A stretch of DNA of 64,000 nt, taken from the NCBI RefSeq assembly GCF_006016075.1, contig NZ_CP040093.1:310001-374000 (forward strand). Direction: 5' to 3'. Within the stretch, counting starts at the first letter, position 1. Every line of letters begins with the position of its first letter. A program made the translations under genes and the position numbers. Source of the stretch: Caloramator sp. E03 (GTDB lineage Bacteria; Bacillota; Clostridia; Clostridiales; Caloramatoraceae). Below the pieces are notes generated by a model. The model saw only the letters and a list, made by a program, of their open reading frames with translations. It did not search any database and was not told the origin of the DNA. Positions 19,447-32,550 of this stretch are shown piece by piece.

Positions 19447-20687
19447 ATGTCATATATTTTTGATTGGAAAGAGGATAGAAATTTAACACTTCTTGTTGAT
19501 TTTTATGAAATTACAATGGCCAATGGATATTTAAGAAATGGTATTGGAAATAAAATAGCATATTTTGATATGTTCTTTAGAAAGGTTCCAGATAACGGTG
19601 GTTTTTGCATTATGGCTGGTTTACAGCAGCTTATTGAATACATGAGAAACATAAAATTTACATCAGACGACATAGATTATTTGAGAAGCAAAAACATCTT
19701 TGATGAAGAATTTTTAGATTATCTTAAAAATTTTAAATTTGAATGTGATGTTTGGGCAATTCCTGAAGGAACGCCTGTATTCCCCAATGAGCCGTTAATA
19801 ATAGTAAGGGGACCCATTATGCAAGCCCAATTCCTTGAAACGATGATTCTTCTTACAATAAATCATCAAACTTTAATTGCAACAAAAGCAAACAGAATAG
19901 TACGGGCAGCTCAAGGAAAGCCTGTTCTTGAATTTGGTTCAAGGAGAGCTCAAGGCTATGATGGTGCAATATTCGGTGCAAGAGCTGCATATATAGGTGG
20001 ATGTTGCTCAACTGCATGTACTATTGCAGAAAAACTCTTTGGAATACCTGCAGTTGGTACAATGGCTCATAGCTGGGTTCAAATGTTTGATAGTGAAATC
20101 GAAGCTTTTAGAGCTTGGGCAAGAGCTTATCCCGACAATTGCCTTCTATTAGTTGATACCTATAACGTATTAAAATCAGGAATACCTAATGCTATAAAAG
20201 TTTTTAAAGAAGAACTTCTCCCTAAAGGTATAAGACCAAAAGGTATAAGAATAGATAGTGGTGATATAAAATATTTAACCGAAAAAGCAAGAAAGATGCT
20301 TGATGATGCAGGTTTTAGTGACTGTAGTATAGTTATTTCCAATTCACTCGATGAATATATAATAAGAGATGTTCTATCCCAAGGTGCTAAAATTGATAGT
20401 TTTGGAGTAGGAGAAAGGCTTATTACTGCTAAATCTGAACCAGTGTTTGGTGGAGTATATAAGCTTGTTGCTGTAGAAGATAATGGTAAAATAATTCCCA
20501 AAATTAAAATTAGCGAAAATGCAGAAAAAATAACAAATCCTGGATTCAAGCAGATATATAGGCTTTTTGATAAAGCTACAAACAAGCAATAGCAGATATT
20601 ATAACCTTTGCAAATGAGATTATTGACGAAGGAAAACCTCTTAAAATATTTGATCCTGTTTATACCTGGAAGAAAAAAGGACCATAG
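19447..20687 (+). pseudogene. pncB: Nicotinate phosphoribosyltransferase, frameshifted and C-terminally short
   Basis: This NAD-salvage enzyme converts nicotinate and PRPP to NaMN. Family blocks are LLVDFYEITMANGYL, LEFGSRRAQGYDGA and RIDSGDIKYL. Start 19447 (AAAGGAG upstream) is preferred to an upstream ATG. A missing base near 20585 (AAGCAAT, expected AAGGCAAT) gives a stop at 20592. The other frame continues AIADIITFANEIIDEGKPLK to YTWKKKGP and stops at 20685-20687. Firmicutes homologues usually run ~70 residues beyond YTWKKK, so the true C-terminus also seems absent. The end overlaps the opposite gene by 28 bp. Confidence 0.82.
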
Positions 20688-21796
20688 GTAGAAATAAACT
20701 TTATTAGTTTTTTTTCAATATTGTCATAGTCATTTCTTTTACGAATGTCAAGTCCAATTATTTCAAGTTCTAATTTTATATCTGAAATACTTTCATTATA
20801 AATTGCTTTAAAAATATTTTGTCCAAAGTCATTAGTAGAATATGTAAATACATTATTTTCATCTTGAGTAACATCTAAAAGTCCCATTCCTTTAAAACAT
20901 ATATCAACAAAATATTGACTAAAGGGCATAGATTCAGCCTTAGCAATTCTAAAAACATCCTTTGACATCTCTATCAATATTTCGTCTTGATTTACATTTA
21001 ACAGTTCATTAATATCTACTATTAGCTCTTTTTTATCTTTAAAGATAGATGCAAAAGTTGAAACTACGTCCCTAAAATTTAAATCTATGTCAATATCATC
21101 AATCTTTAAAAAGTTCCAATTAACATAATAGAGTAAAAGATTCAAAATAGCTGCATACCTTTCTTCCGCTGGCAGCCTTGATAGGCATCTTCCCTTTTTA
21201 GTAGCTTCATAATGACTATTTTTCTGTTCTAAAAGCTTTAAATAACATAATATTGATTTTAAAACATCAACATTTTCATTTTTTTCACTTATTGGAACAT
21301 CATTAAGTATTCTGTCTATTAAATCAATTGTTTCAAAATCATATACATTTACATCCTCAACAATTCTTACAACTGAAGAAGCAAACCTGTTTGTTGTTAT
21401 TTCTTTTATAAATTCCTTTGAATCATCCTTTCTCCCTGTTAATCTGTCATATTTATCAAGATAATAATTTACATCTGAAAACATCTTTTTATAATAGGCT
21501 ATTTTACCGCCCTTTATGAATTTATTGACTTTTAGAAATTCAGTTAGAACCATCATAGCATCTAGCATTTTAGATATTCCATCTCTTCCACCAAATTCAC
21601 TGTCTATCATAGTAATCATGTCTGTAAACTCTTCAAAGCAAAATGAATCAATTGTTTCAAGGGATTCTTGAAAGAAAAACAAAACTTTATTTATTAAAAG
21701 TTTAACTACTTTTAAGTTGAAGTCTATAGTATCTTTGTCATAGCCTACATCCCTCATATATTTTTCAAAAGCCATTAGCTTTTCTTTGTCTGTCAC
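20660..21796 (-). CDS. Unknown acidic protein
   Basis: A 378-residue, soluble, Asp/Glu/Lys-rich protein with no membrane helix or motif I recognise. It is predicted mostly helical. A conserved-looking block is KKGRCLSRLPAEERYAAILNLLLYYVNWNFL near the middle (here named by its parts KGRCLSRLPAEERY and LLLYYVNWNF). It is separated from the sensory cluster by a terminator, so it is its own unit. Its last codons (GPFFFQV) are the antisense of the pncB YTWKKK segment, exactly where pncB loses homology. Its 3' end may therefore also be truncated or chimeric. Confidence 0.5.
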   Translation of the reverse strand: MTDKEKLMAFEKYMRDVGYDKDTIDFNLKVVKLLINKVLFFFQESLETIDSFCFEEFTDMITMIDSEFGGRDGISKMLDAMMVLTEFLKVNKFIKGGKIAYYKKMFSDVNYYLDKYDRLTGRKDDSKEFIKEITTNRFASSVVRIVEDVNVYDFETIDLIDRILNDVPISEKNENVDVLKSILCYLKLLEQKNSHYEATKKGRCLSRLPAEERYAAILNLLLYYVNWNFLKIDDIDIDLNFRDVVSTFASIFKDKKELIVDINELLNVNQDEILIEMSKDVFRIAKAESMPFSQYFVDICFKGMGLLDVTQDENNVFTYSTNDFGQNIFKAIYNESISDIKLELEIIGLDIRKRNDYDNIEKKLIKFISTYGPFFFQV

Positions 21797-21865
21797 TTAT
21801 AACACCACCTATATAATATTCCTTTATCATTATTGACAAAAATGATAATTTTTAATCGTGGTGCA

Positions 21866-21899
21866 CAAAAAAAACAGCCTATAAAAATTACTGGCTGTT
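21866..21899 (-). terminator. Terminator of the PHP/hydrogenase-like cluster
   Basis: AACAGCC / GGCTGTT stem with a 13-nt loop, followed on the minus strand by eight T. Confidence 0.82.
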
Positions 21900-21906
21900 A
21901 ATAGCT

Positions 21907-22611
21907 TCATAATATATCAATAATATTAGAAATTGTAAATTCATCAACATCAATATAAGACTCTCTTTCAAGTATATCCAAAAGATAATGAGCATCAGAG
22001 GATTTTATAAAGTTATAAGTGGGTTTTATTAAATTTGCCTCCTTTAGTTTCATTAATCCTTCGGATTTATAATACTCTAATGTTTTTATAGGAAGATTTT
22101 CCGGTATAAATCCAAGATTTAATATAACACTATTGGAATTCCTATCTATATGTGCTGGAATAAAAGCCCCATTTAATTCTTTAGTTATGCAACAGGCTTC
22201 ATCAAAGGACATATCAGCAGATATTAAAAGCATTCTTTCGTTTATTCCAATAATATTGTCATTACTATCGTATATTATCTGCCTTCCAAATATATCAGAC
22301 TTATTTTTTATTGGTGGAAGAGAGCTATAAACCTTTTCTTGAAAAACAATAGCTGATTCAATATCTTTAAAAAGGCACAAAGCATGTACATCTTCTCTTG
22401 TTTGTATCTCCATTCCAGGGATAACAATTAACCCTAATTTTTGTCCTAATTCCATACAGGCTTTAGCATTTTCACAGCTATTATGATCAGTTATAGCAAT
22501 AGCATCAAGGCCTTTTAATTTTGCCATATTTACAATATTATTAGGCGTCATGTCCTCATCTCCACATGGAGATAAAGCAGTATGAATGTGCAAATCTATA
22601 TATATTCGCAT
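21907..22611 (-). CDS. PHP-domain metal-dependent phosphoesterase
   Basis: A 234-residue PHP (polymerase and histidinol phosphatase) protein. Metal-binding motifs are DLHIHTALSPCGDEDMTP, ITDHNSCEN, PGMEIQTRED and KSSDAHYL. It is of the TrpH/YciV-like class, which hydrolyses phosphate esters or nucleotides; the substrate here is unknown. It is the last gene of a five-gene minus-strand cluster with two DRTGG proteins, an HATPase and a hydrogenase-like protein. This arrangement is recurrent in clostridia, often near redox enzymes. Confidence 0.85.
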   Translation of the reverse strand: MRIYIDLHIHTALSPCGDEDMTPNNIVNMAKLKGLDAIAITDHNSCENAKACMELGQKLGLIVIPGMEIQTREDVHALCLFKDIESAIVFQEKVYSSLPPIKNKSDIFGRQIIYDSNDNIIGINERMLLISADMSFDEACCITKELNGAFIPAHIDRNSNSVILNLGFIPENLPIKTLEYYKSEGLMKLKEANLIKPTYNFIKSSDAHYLLDILERESYIDVDEFTISNIIDIL

Positions 22612-22612
22612 A

Positions 22613-22945
22613 TTAAACTCCCATACTATTAAGTTTTAAGCAGAGCTGATATGAATTAACACCTGCTTGAAGTATAGGTATTGCTTCCTGGTTTGATTTT
22701 TCAATAGTCACACCTTCAATTTCAATATTTTCAGGTACAATTATGCAGGATAACTCCAGCAAAGATGCAACAGCAACAATATTGGGATGTATTTGAACTG
22801 TAATCCATACATTGCCTTTTGATGCATGAGACATCACCCAGCTCAAAAGGTCACAACAATATACACCTCTTACTTCCCTATCTAAACCATCCTCTCCTGA
22901 AACAACTTTTAAATTCAATTTTTCTACTATATCCTTAACCTTCAT
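22613..22945 (-). CDS. DRTGG-domain protein
   Basis: A 110-residue stand-alone DRTGG domain (MKVKDIVEKLNLKVVSGEDG, then RGVYCCDLLSWVMSHASKGN and IIVPENIEIE). DRTGG domains occur in regulatory and nucleotide-binding proteins. It overlaps the hydrogenase-like gene by 11 bp, so translation is coupled. A paralogue lies at 24701-24976, at the head of the same cluster. The role is probably ligand sensing, but that is inference. Confidence 0.83.
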   Translation of the reverse strand: MKVKDIVEKLNLKVVSGEDGLDREVRGVYCCDLLSWVMSHASKGNVWITVQIHPNIVAVASLLELSCIIVPENIEIEGVTIEKSNQEAIPILQAGVNSYQLCLKLNSMGV

Positions 22946-24189
22946 AGTTTTTCACTCCTTTTTTAAGCATAATACATTCTTCAACCTTAGAGAAGCCTCT
23001 AACAACATCCTCAGCGAAGGCTTTACATGATGGTGATCCGCATTGTCCACAATCAATTCCAGGAAGCATATTTATTATTTCATTCATATATTTCATCTTT
23101 TTTACAGCACTTTCAAAATCATCAGCAAGCTTTAACCCCTTTGAGGTTTTTATATATCCGTCACTTAAAAACTCATTTTTATAGTGTTCACTTATTTTAC
23201 TCATTCTATTTGTAAAATTAAGCTGACTACTAAACTTTTTTAAAACTCTCTTTGCATTAAAAGGATTATCCACAAGGAGTATACCTCCAAGGCACCCTTC
23301 TGTACAAGCATGAGCCTCTATAAATTCAACATCATCAAACTTTCCCTTTTCAATATCATCAAGTACCCTTATAACGTTTTTAACCCCATCAACATCTATA
23401 TGCTCTTTAAAATGCATTGAGGTACTTTGACCTCCAACAGTTGCCCATCTGAGCCCAGAATAAGACATCGCTACAGTACCATTTGTTTCAATATTCTTAT
23501 TATTTTTGCTAATATACCTTAATATCTTGGAATATACATCAGATATTGCTATTGCACCATTTATTTGTGATTTGGTATTCTTTTGAATATTTTTTACCTT
23601 AGTAATCCATCCAACACAAGGTGTTAAAAAAAATACTCCTACCTCTTCATCTTTAAAGCCCATCTTTCTATATTTTTCTCTTATCAATATTGCTGCCACT
23701 TCAATTGGAGTTAAAACTTTTATTACATGTTCCATAAGCTCAGGATAGCTTGCATTTATAAGTCTTACAACACTTGGACAAAATGGAGATATTGCTGGCT
23801 TTCTAACGTTTTCAATTTCCTTTCTTGTAATTTCGGTAACTATTTCACAAGCATAAGTAATATCATATACTTCATCAAAGCCAAGGCTTTTTATAGCCTC
23901 ATTTACTATATTTGGATTTATATAATCTCCAAATTGTGTATATATCGTTACTGAAGGTATTACTTTTTACTTTAAATTCATCTATAGAATCTATAGTATC
24001 CTTTTGTGCAACATGAGCATTATAAGGACATACTCTTATGCATTCTCCACAGTCAATACATCTATCAGTATAAATAACGGCCTTAGAATTTTTAACTCTT
24101 ACTGCTTCAACAGGACAACTCATCATACATTTAGTACAGCCTTTACAGTTTTCTTCTATCAATTTTACTGAATGGTATAAACCTTTCAT
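22935..24189 (-). pseudogene. [FeFe]-hydrogenase-like protein, sensory type, frameshifted as given
   Basis: Order: two 4Fe-4S ferredoxin motifs (CKGCTKCMMSCP, CIDCGECIRVCP), an H-cluster domain, and a C-terminal 4Fe-4S motif (GIDCGQCGSPSCKAF). The H-cluster loops are SPFCPSCVRLI, FFLTPCVGWITK and EAHACTEGCLGG. All four cluster cysteines are kept, but the proton-shuttle Cys (TSCCP) is Phe and the PCxxK lysine is Trp. That suggests a slow or sensory enzyme. An extra A in a run of five (23964-23968) breaks the frame; one base fewer restores a ~417-residue protein. Start 24189 follows TAGGGTG. Confidence 0.8.
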
Positions 24190-24198
24190 TTAATCACC

Positions 24199-24627
24199 CT
24201 ATTCAATATTTATTGTCATCTTTACAATCGTATATTCTCCTTTTACAGATTCGATAACAAACTCATCACTGCTTCTTTTCATATTAGGTAGACCCATTCC
24301 TCCACCAAATCCCATCTCACGGGCTTCTTCAGAAGCCGTAGAGTATCCTTCCTTCATTGCAAGGTCAATATCCTCAATTCCAGGTCCCTTATCCCTTGCA
24401 GTAATTTCAATTTTATTTTTATAAATAGCTACTTCAATTTCTCCTCCATAGCTGTGAATAACTATATTCATTTCTGCTTCATAGCATCCTACACAAGCTC
24501 TCCTTACAATGCTGCTATCTATCCCAAGCTGCATTAAAGCCTTTTTAAGGTTACTTGAAGCCTCTCCACCCCTAATATAATCTCCACTTATAATATCATA
24601 GTGGAGCTTTATAAACTCTTGTTGCAT
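24199..24627 (-). CDS. Anti-sigma-type histidine-kinase-like ATPase (HATPase_c_2)
   Basis: A 142-residue GHKL ATPase domain of the RsbT/SpoIIAB type. N-box AEMNIVIHSYGGEIE, G1 DKGPGIEDID and G2 GFGGGMGLPNMKR are present. It lacks a phosphoacceptor His, so it acts either as a serine kinase or as a switch protein. It sits between DRTGG-1 and the hydrogenase-like gene, consistent with relaying a redox or hydrogen signal. The partner is not visible in this window. Confidence 0.85.
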   Translation of the reverse strand: MQQEFIKLHYDIISGDYIRGGEASSNLKKALMQLGIDSSIVRRACVGCYEAEMNIVIHSYGGEIEVAIYKNKIEITARDKGPGIEDIDLAMKEGYSTASEEAREMGFGGGMGLPNMKRSSDEFVIESVKGEYTIVKMTINIE

Positions 24628-24700
24628 TTATTGATTTCAGCTCCTTTTAAACCATTTACATATAAAATACCACATGCATTGAACATTATATGTTTAGTTG

Positions 24701-24976
24701 TCATAACACAGATATCTTTCTCTTTTGCAAGTTTATAACACTTTCATCAGGACTTTTTCCCCTAACATATACTATACATTTTATATCCATCATTTCAGCA
24801 GTTCTTACAGCTTGTATATTAGTAAGACCAGTTAAAAGAATAGTATCTTTATTTACAAGAGATAAAACGTCACTCATAAGATCACATCCAAAAGCATAAC
24901 CCACATCATAATCAAGCTTTTCATGTCCACAGAGTACTTCTGCATTTAGCAATTCTGCTATATCTTTTAATTTCAT
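24701..24976 (-). CDS. DRTGG-domain protein, first gene of the sensory cluster
   Basis: A 91-residue DRTGG domain (MKLKDIAELLNAEVLCGHEK, AFGCDLMSDVLSLVNKDTIL). The start at 24976 is chosen because GGGGGTTTAATA lies directly before that ATG; an upstream in-frame start has no ribosome site. It is a paralogue of the protein at 22613-22945. The two may form a heterodimer or two successive sensors in one operon. Confidence 0.82.
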   Translation of the reverse strand: MKLKDIAELLNAEVLCGHEKLDYDVGYAFGCDLMSDVLSLVNKDTILLTGLTNIQAVRTAEMMDIKCIVYVRGKSPDESVINLQKRKISVL

Positions 24977-25100
24977 TATTAAACCCCCGATTTTAAATTT
25001 ATTTTTATAATTATTATAATAATCTTTATATACAGTCAATTCAAGTTAATATTGTTCAAAATTTTATTATTTTAAATAGTAATTTTAGTATATATAAAAT

Positions 25101-25135
25101 AAGATGCCTGCAATACAAATATCAACAGGCATCTT
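25101..25135 (-). terminator. Terminator of asnA
   Basis: A perfect 10-bp stem AAGATGCCTG / CAGGCATCTT, followed by ATTTT on the minus strand. Confidence 0.85.
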
Positions 25136-25432
25136 AATATCACTATTGTTAAAGTAAAAATATATTATTTTTTGTACATTCTTCTACCATCCAATCAGGC
25201 CATATTGCCGCCTGAACTTCTCCTATATGTGCTTTCCTTAAAAAGAACATGCATATCCTTGATTGACCAATTCCTCCACCAACTGTATAAGGTAGTTCCC
25301 CATTTAAAAGCATTTTGTGGAAAAGTAATTCCTTTCTATCTTCACATCCGCTTATCTTAAGCTGTTTTTCTAAAGCCTCCTCATCAACCCTTATTCCCAT
25401 AGAAGATAACTCATAAGCAATTTCAAGAACAG

Positions 25433-25937
25433 GATTCCAGAATATTATATCTCCATTTAATGTCCAATCATCATAGTCAGGAGACCTTCCATCATGTTTT
25501 ATTCCGGATTTTAACTCTCCTCCTATCTGCATTATAAATACAGCTCCTTTTTCTTTTGCAATAGCATTTTCCCTTTCCTTTGGAGTAAGTTTTGGATACA
25601 TATCTTCAAGTTCTTGAGTTGTTATAAAGCTTATTTTTTCTGGGAGTACCTTTGATATCTGAGGATAAAGTTTTGTAACATAGTCTTCTGTAGCTTTAAA
25701 TACACTATAAATATCTTGAACTATTTCCTTTAGTTTTTCTACATTCCTTTCCTCTTTTTTAATTACTTTTTCCCAATCCCATTGATCAACGTAAACTGAA
25801 TGAAGGTTATCAAGATCTTCATCCCTTCTTATAGCATTCATATCAGTATAAAGCCCTTCTCCAACTTTAAACCCATACCTTTTAAGTGCTAAACGCTTCC
25901 ATTTTGCAAGGGAATGAACTATCTGAACATCCCTTGA
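25433..25937. repeat. Internal tandem repeat of asnA, downstream copy
   Basis: 505 bp, repeated at 25936-26439 with a single one-base difference. The copies share the two bases GA at the junction. Confidence 0.93.
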
Positions 25938-26439
25938 TTCCAGAATATTATATCTCCATTTAATGTCCAATCATCATAGTCAGGAGACCTTCCATCATGT
26001 TTTATTCCGGATTTTAACTCTCCTCCTATCTGCATTATAAATACAGCTCCTTTTTCTTTTGCAATAGCATTTTCCCTTTCCTTTGGAGTAAGTTTTGGAT
26101 ACATATCTTCAAGTTCTTGAGTTGTTATAAAGCTTATTTTTCTGGGAGTACCTTTGATATCTGAGGATAAAGTTTTGTAACATAGTCTTCTGTAGCTTTA
26201 AATACACTATAAATATCTTGAACTATTTCCTTTAGTTTTTCTACATTCCTTTCCTCTTTTTTAATTACTTTTTCCCAATCCCATTGATCAACGTAAACTG
26301 AATGAAGGTTATCAAGATCTTCATCCCTTCTTATAGCATTCATATCAGTATAAAGCCCTTCTCCAACTTTAAACCCATACCTTTTAAGTGCTAAACGCTT
26401 CCATTTTGCAAGGGAATGAACTATCTGAACATCCCTTGA
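25936..26439. repeat. Internal tandem repeat of asnA, upstream copy
   Basis: 504 bp; matches 25433-25937 except for one T missing from a run of six. Confidence 0.93.
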
Positions 26440-26744
26440 GCCTATAGCTTTAACATCAAAGGATACAGGTCTTTCATATCCATTAAGGTTGTCATTGATA
26501 CCTGTTTCCGGTCTTACAAATAGCGGAGCTGATACTCTTGTAAGATTAAGCTTTTTAGCAAGTTCAATTTGAAAGAAATCCTTTATTTTCTTTATTGCTA
26601 TTTCAGTTTCCTTTATATCAAGTAATGGTTTATATTCTTTTGGTATAATTAGGCTTTTTAGCATATCACTCATATATATTCCTCCTATAAATTTATATTT
26701 ATTTGCAATATGTTCATTTTTATTCAAAGCATGGCCATGCAATA

Positions 26745-27032
26745 ATAAAAAAATAAAACCTTTCATCCAAGGGACGAAAGGTTAATTTCCGCGGTGCCAC
26801 CCAAATTAGCATAAAAGCTCACTCAATCAGTACGGAATATACAATATTCGATACTGTCCAATCTATAACGGTTTGGCTCCGTCTAAGTCTACTCTTAGGC
26901 ATACATCCTAATTTTGGTTAGATACTCCGGGATGTTCTTCAGTACAGCCTTTGTGTTGATCTTCCACCATCATCAACTCGCTATAACTATCTCTGTACTT
27001 ACTCTTCCCTTCACTGTATTTGCCTTTATTTA
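26745..27032 (-). promoter_or_regulatory. T-box riboswitch (tRNA-Asn) controlling asnA
   Basis: A minus-strand leader with the T-box sequence GGGTGGCACCGCGG (about 26789-26802) followed by a terminator hairpin AACCTTTCGTCCC...GGATGAAAGGTT and T-run. Stem I has GGGA/TCCC and GTACAG/CTGTAC pairing around a loop containing GAACA. The codon AAC (26934-26936) is the likely specifier, matching asparagine. Uncharged tRNA-Asn would switch asnA on. Confidence 0.92.
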
Positions 27033-30819: not shown

Positions 30820-32550
30820 TTATTTTTTCGTGTCTTTAAAAATTTTCTTCATTTGTTTCATATTAATTATTTGATAATCCGTTCTAAAGCCAAATTTGTC
30901 ATGTAAATCATCTGTAAAATCAGTCCTTGTATATATTGGAATATAGCCCTCATTCTTAATCTCATAAAAATTCATTTCTCTAAGTCCTGATATAATATCG
31001 CTACACGTATATTTTTCTGAAAGCTTTTTTTCTAATAGCCTATATATCATCAGGGAAATGAAACAAGTTGTAAAATGCGCTTTTATTCTATCATCTCTTC
31101 TTAAATATACTGGTCTTGCCTTAAACTCTGATTTCATAATACGGAAGGACTCTTCTATTTCCCAACGCCTTCTATTAATTTTTATAATTGCGGCAGCATC
31201 ATCACTTATATTTGTACATACTGCGTAAAAACCATCATACATTGCCTCTTGTGCTATTAAATCAGCATTAATGCTGTATAATTCTTTTTCAGCTACTTCA
31301 CCGTCAGGTGTGTAGTGAGTCTTTGAAATAAAGCGTTTGTAATCATTAGCATTACATTTCTTCAATTTTGTAGGATTGGTATCAATAACCTCTTGAGCTC
31401 TCTCTATTTGGTTACCTCTTATAGTTCTTTGATAGTTTCTATATTTCAAGGAAAATGTTACAATAAGTTTTTGTTCAAGCCCGTCTTCTTTTATCCAGCG
31501 TTCCTTATAAAAAATTTTATTAATATCTGCTTCTTCGTTAATTTCGTTTAAATTATATACTTTGTCTGAATCGCTAAGATGCCATCCTTTGGGGTCTAAC
31601 GCCCATTCTTTTAAATGTGATTTTAATTTTTTAATAGATTGTGTAGTAATAAAAGCTCGATTTTGTATATTATTAAATTTTCTATTAGCTGTAGATGCAA
31701 GCCCTGCATCTGTACAAATGATAAATTTTGAAAGCCCAAATTCGGATATAATTTTTTGCTCTAAAGGTTTTAAAGTTACTTGTTCATTAGTATTACCTTT
31801 GTTTATACAAAATGCAAGGGGGATGCCGTCTCCATCCATGAAAAGTCCCATTTGAACAATTGGATTGGGTCTATGTTCCTTCGATACTCCATACTGTTTT
31901 AATCCTTCTTCCTGTTCAATTTCAAAGAAATAGTTGGTGCAGTCATAATAGAGAACTCCTTTATTACGATTGCAAACTTTAAGACTGTTCTTATATAATT
32001 CTGACTGAATAAAATCTGTTTCTTCTGAAATTACTTCTAAAGCTCTATAAATATGCTGAAGCTCAAAATCAGGCTGCTCAATAAATTTTTTTGATAGTTC
32101 GTATGTAGCAAGCTTAGATGATGGATAAATAATTCTTGCATAAATTAATCTTGATAGTATTGAATTTAGATTAAAATTAAATTTATGTTTATCCGAAATA
32201 TTTTTACAGATATTTTGCAGCCCAAGCTCGTTATATATTTTTTGTAAAAACAAGTAACTACCATTAAAAGTATGCTGTTCGTCTTTGTTAATTTGTTTAA
32301 CAGGCGAGTATTTTACTAATATTTCTCTTTTCTCTTCTTTTTCTTTTCTATTTAACTCTTCAACGTACCTCTTCCCCCATTCTATAGGGTCTTGTCCGTT
32401 TAGTTTTTTTAAAAGTTCATCATAAGTGCCAAGCTTCTCAACTACTTTTGAAGTACGATTGCCTTTTTCATAAACAGATTTAACTACGTATAAGGATGCT
32501 GCATTTTTTGATTTAACAATTTGTAATCTCATTTTTTCACATCTCTTCAT
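30820..32550 (-). CDS. IS1634-family DDE transposase, copy 2
   Basis: A 576-residue protein with sequence identical to the transposase at 3211-4941, with the same D-D-E landmarks (YYDCTNYFF, IICTDAGLAS, WEIEESFRIMK). Both copies appear intact, so either could be the active source of transposase. Confidence 0.95.
   Translation of the reverse strand: MKRCEKMRLQIVKSKNAASLYVVKSVYEKGNRTSKVVEKLGTYDELLKKLNGQDPIEWGKRYVEELNRKEKEEKREILVKYSPVKQINKDEQHTFNGSYLFLQKIYNELGLQNICKNISDKHKFNFNLNSILSRLIYARIIYPSSKLATYELSKKFIEQPDFELQHIYRALEVISEETDFIQSELYKNSLKVCNRNKGVLYYDCTNYFFEIEQEEGLKQYGVSKEHRPNPIVQMGLFMDGDGIPLAFCINKGNTNEQVTLKPLEQKIISEFGLSKFIICTDAGLASTANRKFNNIQNRAFITTQSIKKLKSHLKEWALDPKGWHLSDSDKVYNLNEINEEADINKIFYKERWIKEDGLEQKLIVTFSLKYRNYQRTIRGNQIERAQEVIDTNPTKLKKCNANDYKRFISKTHYTPDGEVAEKELYSINADLIAQEAMYDGFYAVCTNISDDAAAIIKINRRRWEIEESFRIMKSEFKARPVYLRRDDRIKAHFTTCFISLMIYRLLEKKLSEKYTCSDIISGLREMNFYEIKNEGYIPIYTRTDFTDDLHDKFGFRTDYQIINMKQMKKIFKDTKK

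Follow-up and report, generated by a model that had tools for sequence, protein, structure and literature searches.

A five-gene cluster of Caloramator sp. E03 was analyzed within a 64,000-nucleotide stretch of its genome (contig NZ_CP040093.1, GCF_006016075.1, positions 310,001 to 374,000), hereafter called the window. On balance, the locus probably represents, in Caloramator, a conserved sensory module built around a group D [FeFe]-hydrogenase, in which the hydrogenase-like protein HydS would gate, in response to H2 or redox state, a kinase/phosphoesterase switch that acts via DRTGG proteins and tunes HydABC or Rnf. The cluster occupies positions 21907-24976 on the minus strand and reads, from 24976 to 21907, DRTGG1, a HATPase (HATP1), HydS, DRTGG2 and a PHP gene, with neighbors that overlap or almost touch. 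The content, order, strand and tight packing described in the original prediction for this DNA were all recovered, and Pfam backs each gene. The individual parts are listed below.

24704..24976, minus strand: DRTGG1, putative small regulatory protein, 91-amino-acid open reading frame (ORF); Pfam DRTGG 25.5 bits (cut-off 25.2), 1.4e-5/1.2e-5 as a pair with DRTGG2
24199..24627, minus strand: HATP1, SpoIIAB/RsbW-like putative kinase, 142 amino acids; HATPase_c_2 36.4 bits, 6e-9
23899..24189, minus strand: HydS N-terminal ferredoxin part with two 4Fe-4S motifs; Fer4 49.1 bits, 3.8e-13; 74% by tblastn to residues 1-90 of Caloramator quimbayensis HydS
22935..23966, minus strand: HydS H-domain and C-terminal Cx2Cx4Cx16C motif, 343-amino-acid open frame, 81% identical to C. 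quimbayensis; Fe_hyd_lg_C 89.7 bits, 2.9e-25; C-terminal FeS domain, Pfam 50.1 bits, 2.2e-13
22613..22945, minus strand: DRTGG2, putative small regulatory protein, 110 amino acids; Pfam DRTGG 25.3 bits (cut-off 25.2)
21907..22611, minus strand: putative PHP-domain phosphoesterase, 234 amino acids; Pfam PHP 43.2 bits (cut-off 26.4), 7e-11

The E03 genome comprises 2.98 Mb in a single contig. The nearest named relatives found are C. quimbayensis (HydS 81% identical) and a Caloramator metagenome-assembled genome (79%). A scan for promoters and terminators across 21750-25300 was uninformative, with 23 promoter-like sequences (20.3 expected) and two terminator-like sequences (1.1 expected).

The gene set is conserved as a unit

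The genes of the module co-occur almost perfectly across genomes and are more conserved as a set than had been supposed. Profile searches in a class sample of 243 genomes, each at least 90% complete, identified HydS in 123, the PHP protein in 121 and HATP1 in 122. HydS and PHP occur together in 120 genomes, HydS without PHP in three, PHP without HydS in one and neither in 119; for HydS and HATP1, the corresponding numbers are 120, 3, 2 and 118. The lack of co-occurrence that would have refuted the original prediction is therefore not what the genomes show. Among the six HydS-only rows of both comparisons, G079 and G280 stop at a contig edge, the coordinates of G100 and G178 place them where a contig begins, G149 has another gene in the place of PHP, and G090 (locus L039) shows no PHP gene. 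HydS was also found in 103 of the 249 genomes of a phylum sample, which overlaps the class sample.

Gene order was compared in 91 loci: 40 from the class sample and 40 from the phylum sample, hand-picked to spread over genera and to have room on the contig, and 11 relatives. L007 and L008, copies of L106 and L121, were dropped, the window itself is not counted and contig ends were kept. All five genes are present in 77 of these loci, and another six have the full set with one pair fused (L071, L076, L078, L100, L085 and L086). The remaining eight comprise L039 and L080 (without PHP), L093 (without DRTGG1), L056 (HydS alone), L075, L079, L094 and L104. At L075 and L079, a HATP1-HydS pair stands beside a group C-like hydrogenase, which carries a chemotaxis MCP domain in L075, the one of the two that was scanned. 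The gaps at the four junctions fall within -200 to +100 bases in 79 of 81, 83 of 88, 78 of 86 and 79 of 82 cases.

The module often borders hydrogenase operons and sometimes rnf operons

The usual continuation after the module is HydC-HATP2-HydD-HydB-HydA, in which HATP2 is a second HATPase. The survey of linkage to catalytic hydrogenases that had been proposed for this gene set yields a hydB match in the fetched stretch of 62 of the 91 loci, sometimes on the opposite strand or cut. In the E03 genome, a hyd operon that includes HATP2 lies at ~299434-304457, on the same strand and 27 kb from the module; it had been overlooked in the original prediction. Among the 10 other loci of the window family (L106-L112 and L119-L121), hyd genes are in the stretch only in L110. 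In three loci (L055, L095 and L097), rnf genes follow immediately after the module, with RnfC confirmed by Pfam in L055 and L097. The theme common to these neighbors is ferredoxin/NAD(H) exchange.

No further neighbor is widely shared, the largest extra family being found in 13 loci. Neither a STAS protein nor a sigma factor is among the 14 most shared extra neighbor families, as judged by eye rather than by profile. A Rex-like redox repressor gene is located near the group D module in eight of the 91 loci (L071, L073, L074, L076, L078, L082, L090 and L092), an assignment checked with Pfam for L071.

Natural fusions name candidate partners

Several relatives join genes of the module in a single open frame. 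DRTGG1 is fused to HATP1 in L071, L076, L078 and L100, where the parts in L071 and L078 and the DRTGG part in L100 (91 bits) were recognized with our own profiles only and Pfam sees only the HATPase in L100. In L104, HATP1 (profile 173 bits, residues 9-143) is fused to HydS (487 bits, residues 153-586). This kinase-HydS fusion supports the earlier proposal that the signal passes through the HATPase, a putative kinase. PHP is fused to HATP2 in L087 and L096, and a CBS pair precedes HATP1 within one frame in L095.

In L085 and L086, DRTGG2 follows the C-terminal Fe-S motif of HydS. This arrangement is the best clue that DRTGG2 may read HydS, because the fused DRTGG2 takes the place that a PAS domain has in the group C-type [FeFe]-hydrogenase of the E03 genome. 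The latter hydrogenase adjoins a SpoIIE-type phosphatase (L117:10394-13275).

In L026, a SpoIIE-type phosphatase of the L117 family immediately precedes the group D module. The idea, drawn from this locus, that a SpoIIE/PP2C phosphatase is a core member of the module was rejected. The association is weak (46 of 123 HydS genomes versus 26 of 120 others; Fisher p 0.008), and such a phosphatase is found in the fetched stretch of one of the 91 loci.

HydS fits the group D type

The window hydrogenase-like protein fits group D (M2e) HydS of the kind represented by TamHydS from Thermoanaerobacter mathranii, as judged from its sequence features. All four H-cluster cysteines are present, and the window protein shares the four cysteines of the C-terminal Cx2Cx4Cx16C motif with all 91 relatives. 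Pfam matched the FeS domain and recognized no PAS domain in window HydS. The four retained cluster cysteines and the extra Fe-S motif thus agree with the original prediction, as do a missing proton-shuttle Cys and a missing loop-2 Lys. The term "non-standard H-cluster" was an overstatement: the cluster ligands are standard and their surroundings are not.

These surroundings were compared with HydA of the same genome and with the 91 other HydS proteins. At the column of CpI C299, the proton-shuttle Cys of group A, the window has Phe and its own HydA Cys; the relatives have mostly Ala (56) or Ser (18), and none has Cys. The M353 column holds Thr in the window, Met in HydA and Thr (55), Ser (35) or Ala (1) in the relatives. 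The M497 column holds His in the window, Met in HydA and a mixture in the relatives (Leu in 38, Gln in 20, and others). At K358, the loop-2 Lys, the window has Trp and HydA Lys, and the relatives have Lys (74), Trp (10), Arg (5) or Gln (2). The absence of this Lys is therefore true for the window lineage and not a group D trait. The role of the loop-2 Lys is one that we presume, and none of the papers listed in a literature search mentioned K358.

TamHydS columns were placed via published numbering, without the TamHydS sequence itself. At the column equated in this way with E252, the window has Gln, its own HydA Val and the relatives mostly Glu (72) or Gln (17), and the columns inferred for E289 and D265 are kept in window HydS. 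In the accessible text on TamHydS, the likeness extends to the domain order, the exact Cx2Cx4Cx16C motif, the absent proton-shuttle Cys, Ser/Thr at M353, a flanking histidine-kinase-like ATPase and a bifurcating hydrogenase in the genome. The window protein differs in its residues at C299 (Ala in TamHydS), M497 (Leu in TamHydS), K358 and E252, in the distance to hydABC and in its broken frame.

In a tree of 38 hand-chosen H-domain rows, which holds no named reference sequences and whose bootstrap is not fully settled, the window H-domain falls on the group D side of the branch (support 100/99), in a six-row clade with five relatives (100/100). The HydF maturase is encoded in the same genome (587 bits).

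TamHydS is a putative H2 sensor according to the accessible parts of the literature (PMC6984386, PMC8163306, PMC11803613, PMC10407848, PMC13104023), with low activity and a structure that changes on H2 (PMC13104023). The earlier suggestion that the window protein may sense H2 or redox state gains from this kinship, with H2 as the inferred signal.

A putative kinase, a phosphoesterase and two DRTGG proteins

Residue conservation was assessed in length-filtered relatives, which leaves out most fused copies. The catalytic Glu and Asn and the G1/G2 boxes of HATP1 are invariant in 82 of 82 relatives, and nine His/Asp/Glu positions of the PHP protein are likewise invariant (82 of 82). Which HATP1 residues are catalytic and which PHP positions are metal ligands is what we take to hold from their families. 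In the DRTGG proteins, D33 and S36 of DRTGG1 (79 of 79) and D32 and S35 of DRTGG2 (82 of 82) are invariant.

A model of the C. quimbayensis HATP1 protein, built from three rows (mean predicted local distance difference test score [pLDDT] of 80), has SpoIIAB and RsbW as its best fold matches (Foldseek E 2.4e-9 for SpoIIAB 1til). A sequence search of the PDB with the kinase gave no match at E 0.01, and the curated scores stay below their cut-offs (TIGR01925 spIIAB, 54 bits versus 135; RsbW, 25 versus 145). HATP1 probably works like SpoIIAB/RsbW without being a member of that family. The AlphaFold2 model of C. quimbayensis DRTGG2 (six rows, including that of the window; pLDDT 93) matches 2ioj (Z 15.1, 2.0 Å over 109 residues), 3l31 (Z 13.4) and 1ko7 (Z 12.9), and its S35 lies at a helix start after a strand. 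The PHP protein has NCBIfam matches below cut-off to a nucleoside-bisphosphate phosphatase and to RNase RNM, and it could equally be a protein phosphatase. Taken together, HATP1 is read as a putative kinase, PHP as a putative phosphoesterase and the DRTGG proteins as candidate substrates.

A proposed switch and its alternatives

In the proposed scheme, HydS would act as a poor catalyst that reacts with H2 at the H-cluster and/or accepts electrons at its N-terminal clusters, and would change shape as a result. DRTGG2 would read this change, a role ascribed to the PAS domain in group C HydS. The SpoIIAB-like kinase, which is linked with both HydS and DRTGG1, would be switched and would phosphorylate a partner, most simply a DRTGG protein at the invariant Asp-x-x-Ser, and the PHP enzyme would reverse the mark. 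The output would tune bifurcating HydABC (or Rnf). Contact or modification would be the means, because none of the five proteins has a recognized DNA-binding domain.

The original prediction had instead assigned the DRTGG and PHP proteins to the making or breaking of a small ligand. In such a model, HydS controls the pathway of a nucleotide-like messenger through which HydABC is tuned; PHP would break this messenger, and the HATPase or DRTGG would make or bind it. PHP family members hydrolyze nucleotides, in line with the subthreshold NCBIfam matches, DRTGG accompanies CBS domains in the pyrophosphatase 3l2b/3l31, and in L095 the kinase carries a fused CBS pair. No positive evidence for a ligand was found, however. 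DRTGG2 is a small protein that folds like a regulatory domain, and two relatives have it fused to HydS; the conserved set contains no synthase-like gene, given the 13-locus maximum among extra families; and PHP is absent from some otherwise full clusters, such as L039. We regard this model as unlikely.

A role in assembly or maintenance, in which HydS or HydABC would be built or repaired with the help of the kinase, DRTGG and PHP proteins and no signal would be passed on, is still less probable. It would account for the constant linkage to hydS, the frequent linkage to hydABC and the second HATPase within the hyd operon. However, TamHydS gains its cofactor in Escherichia coli and in vitro without these partners, as reported in the accessible parts of PMC6984386 and PMC8163306. 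The partners also precede rnf genes without hydS in two genomes, G232 and G279.

Several observations weigh against the sensory switch itself. In G232 and G279, the set before rnf is DRTGG1-HATP1-DRTGG2-PHP-HATP2 (L122 and L123), and a lone hydS is found at another site, next to an atypical operon that includes RnfD-type and NqrF-like genes (L056 and L124). In G244 (L125), HATP1-DRTGG2-PHP is followed by hyd genes without a recognized HydA and then by rnf, and no HydS was found in a search of that genome. Hence, the partners do not always travel with HydS. PHP is missing in L039, L080 and G149. Both DRTGG matches barely clear the Pfam threshold (25.3 and 25.5 versus 25.2 bits), and the fusions join genes that are already adjacent, as chance fusions would. 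The invariant DRTGG Ser as phospho-acceptor is a guess; it may be structural, because 2ioj also carries a Ser in that stretch. Finally, the window copies of HydS and DRTGG1 are broken: HydS lies in two frames, with the ferredoxin part at 23899-24189 and the H-domain at ~23966-22935, and the frame of DRTGG1 changes within 24716-24761.

Frame breaks in the window copy

Neither frame break had been reported in the original prediction. DRTGG1 measures 91 amino acids in the window versus 122-123 in two Caloramator relatives, and its homology runs on in another frame to ~24612, as a two-frame match to the 123-amino-acid C. quimbayensis protein. The HydS profile is spanned by a single ORF in 91 of 91 other loci; in G016, a relative outside this census, the HydS match is partial (query residues 2-154). 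Programmed frameshifting was considered for the split HydS and rejected, because of the single ORF in all 91 loci and because other genes of the region are split too.

The two breaks inside the cluster, together with truncated genes nearby, could mean that the module is decaying in this strain, with HydS and DRTGG1 as true pseudogenes. This is rather doubtful, as the H-domain remains 81% identical to its relative over almost its full length with no further stop. Moreover, the pattern of split genes favors assembly indels over decay of the HydS operon alone, because five of the 13 proteins of the syntenic C. quimbayensis stretch that match the window are split across frames, unrelated genes among them. 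The five are AsnA (with a repeated stretch), DRTGG1, HydS, a nicotinate phosphoribosyltransferase-like and an RNA methyltransferase-like protein, the latter two named by us from sequence. A sixth matched protein is truncated at 20678, the point at which the phosphoribosyltransferase match ends.

Around ~20678, two convergent genes, for the nicotinate phosphoribosyltransferase-like protein and a 451-amino-acid protein of unknown function, both lack their ends relative to C. quimbayensis, as if a short stretch were missing. At 25149-26766, the AsnA-like asparagine synthetase gene is split into three pieces that overlap, occupy three different frames and include a repeated stretch, either an assembly artifact or a partial duplication; it is one 340-amino-acid ORF in two Caloramator relatives. 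A D-2-hydroxyacid-dehydrogenase-like gene that lies between AsnA and a peptidase-like gene in C. quimbayensis (L007:3395-4363) has no match in the window. A 576-amino-acid ORF at 30820-32550 carries a DDE transposase domain (Pfam DDE_Tnp_1, 40.3 bits).

Relation to known systems and significance

Group D genes have been noted near kinases and bifurcating hydrogenases (PMC3561251, PMC3608648), and HydDB group C3 is described as phosphatase-linked (PMC5037454), both in the accessible portions of these papers. Group C (M2f) hydrogenases such as TmHydS share the F-domain, the H-domain and the C-terminal Fe-S motif, as far as the available text of PMC5037454 goes. Group D differs in that it has no PAS domain, with DRTGG2 standing or fused in its place, and forms a separate branch of the tree. 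HATP1 shares with SpoIIAB/RsbW the HATPase fold and the invariant catalytic Glu/Asn and G boxes. Unlike partner switching, however, the module has no recognized STAS antagonist or sigma factor among its shared neighbors and has DRTGG and PHP partners instead. The DRTGG2 model resembles DRTGG and HPr-kinase N-terminal domains (2ioj, 3l31, 1ko7) in fold, whereas the DRTGG proteins of the module are free-standing, ~110-120 amino acids long, carry the invariant Asp-x-x-Ser and are fused to HydS or the kinase in relatives.

HydS was known already. In the open literature searched, we found no account of the complete module, of its fusions or of the rnf link: no title retrieved for "DRTGG domain" among open papers concerned the module, a single paper (PMC10102598) was listed for hydrogenases together with DRTGG, and an earlier description of the gene order may exist. 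The locus thus combines a sequence variant of a known hydrogenase group with a gene module whose function past the published sensor proposal would be the switch set out above. A further-reaching version is possible, though we hold it to be less than probable: group D HydS would feed an undescribed phospho-switch that sets HydABC and Rnf activity directly. In it, a SpoIIAB-like kinase and a PHP phosphatase would act on DRTGG proteins, and no STAS protein, sigma factor or response regulator would take part. Anaerobes would thus balance H2, NADH and ferredoxin post-translationally, and the Caloramator sensor site would have drifted furthest from catalysis.

In its accessible text, PMC8163306 asks how signal transduction proceeds without a PAS domain, and PMC13104023 states that the protein interactions of group D HydS in native hosts are little known. 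The conserved set and the fusions name candidate partners, namely, DRTGG2 and the kinase for HydS and DRTGG1 for the kinase, and reduce the signaling question to five testable proteins. HydS is present in about half of the class genomes (123 of 243), in many cases next to the two principal ferredoxin/NAD machines that fermenters and acetogens possess, and the module therefore bears on the control of H2 yield.

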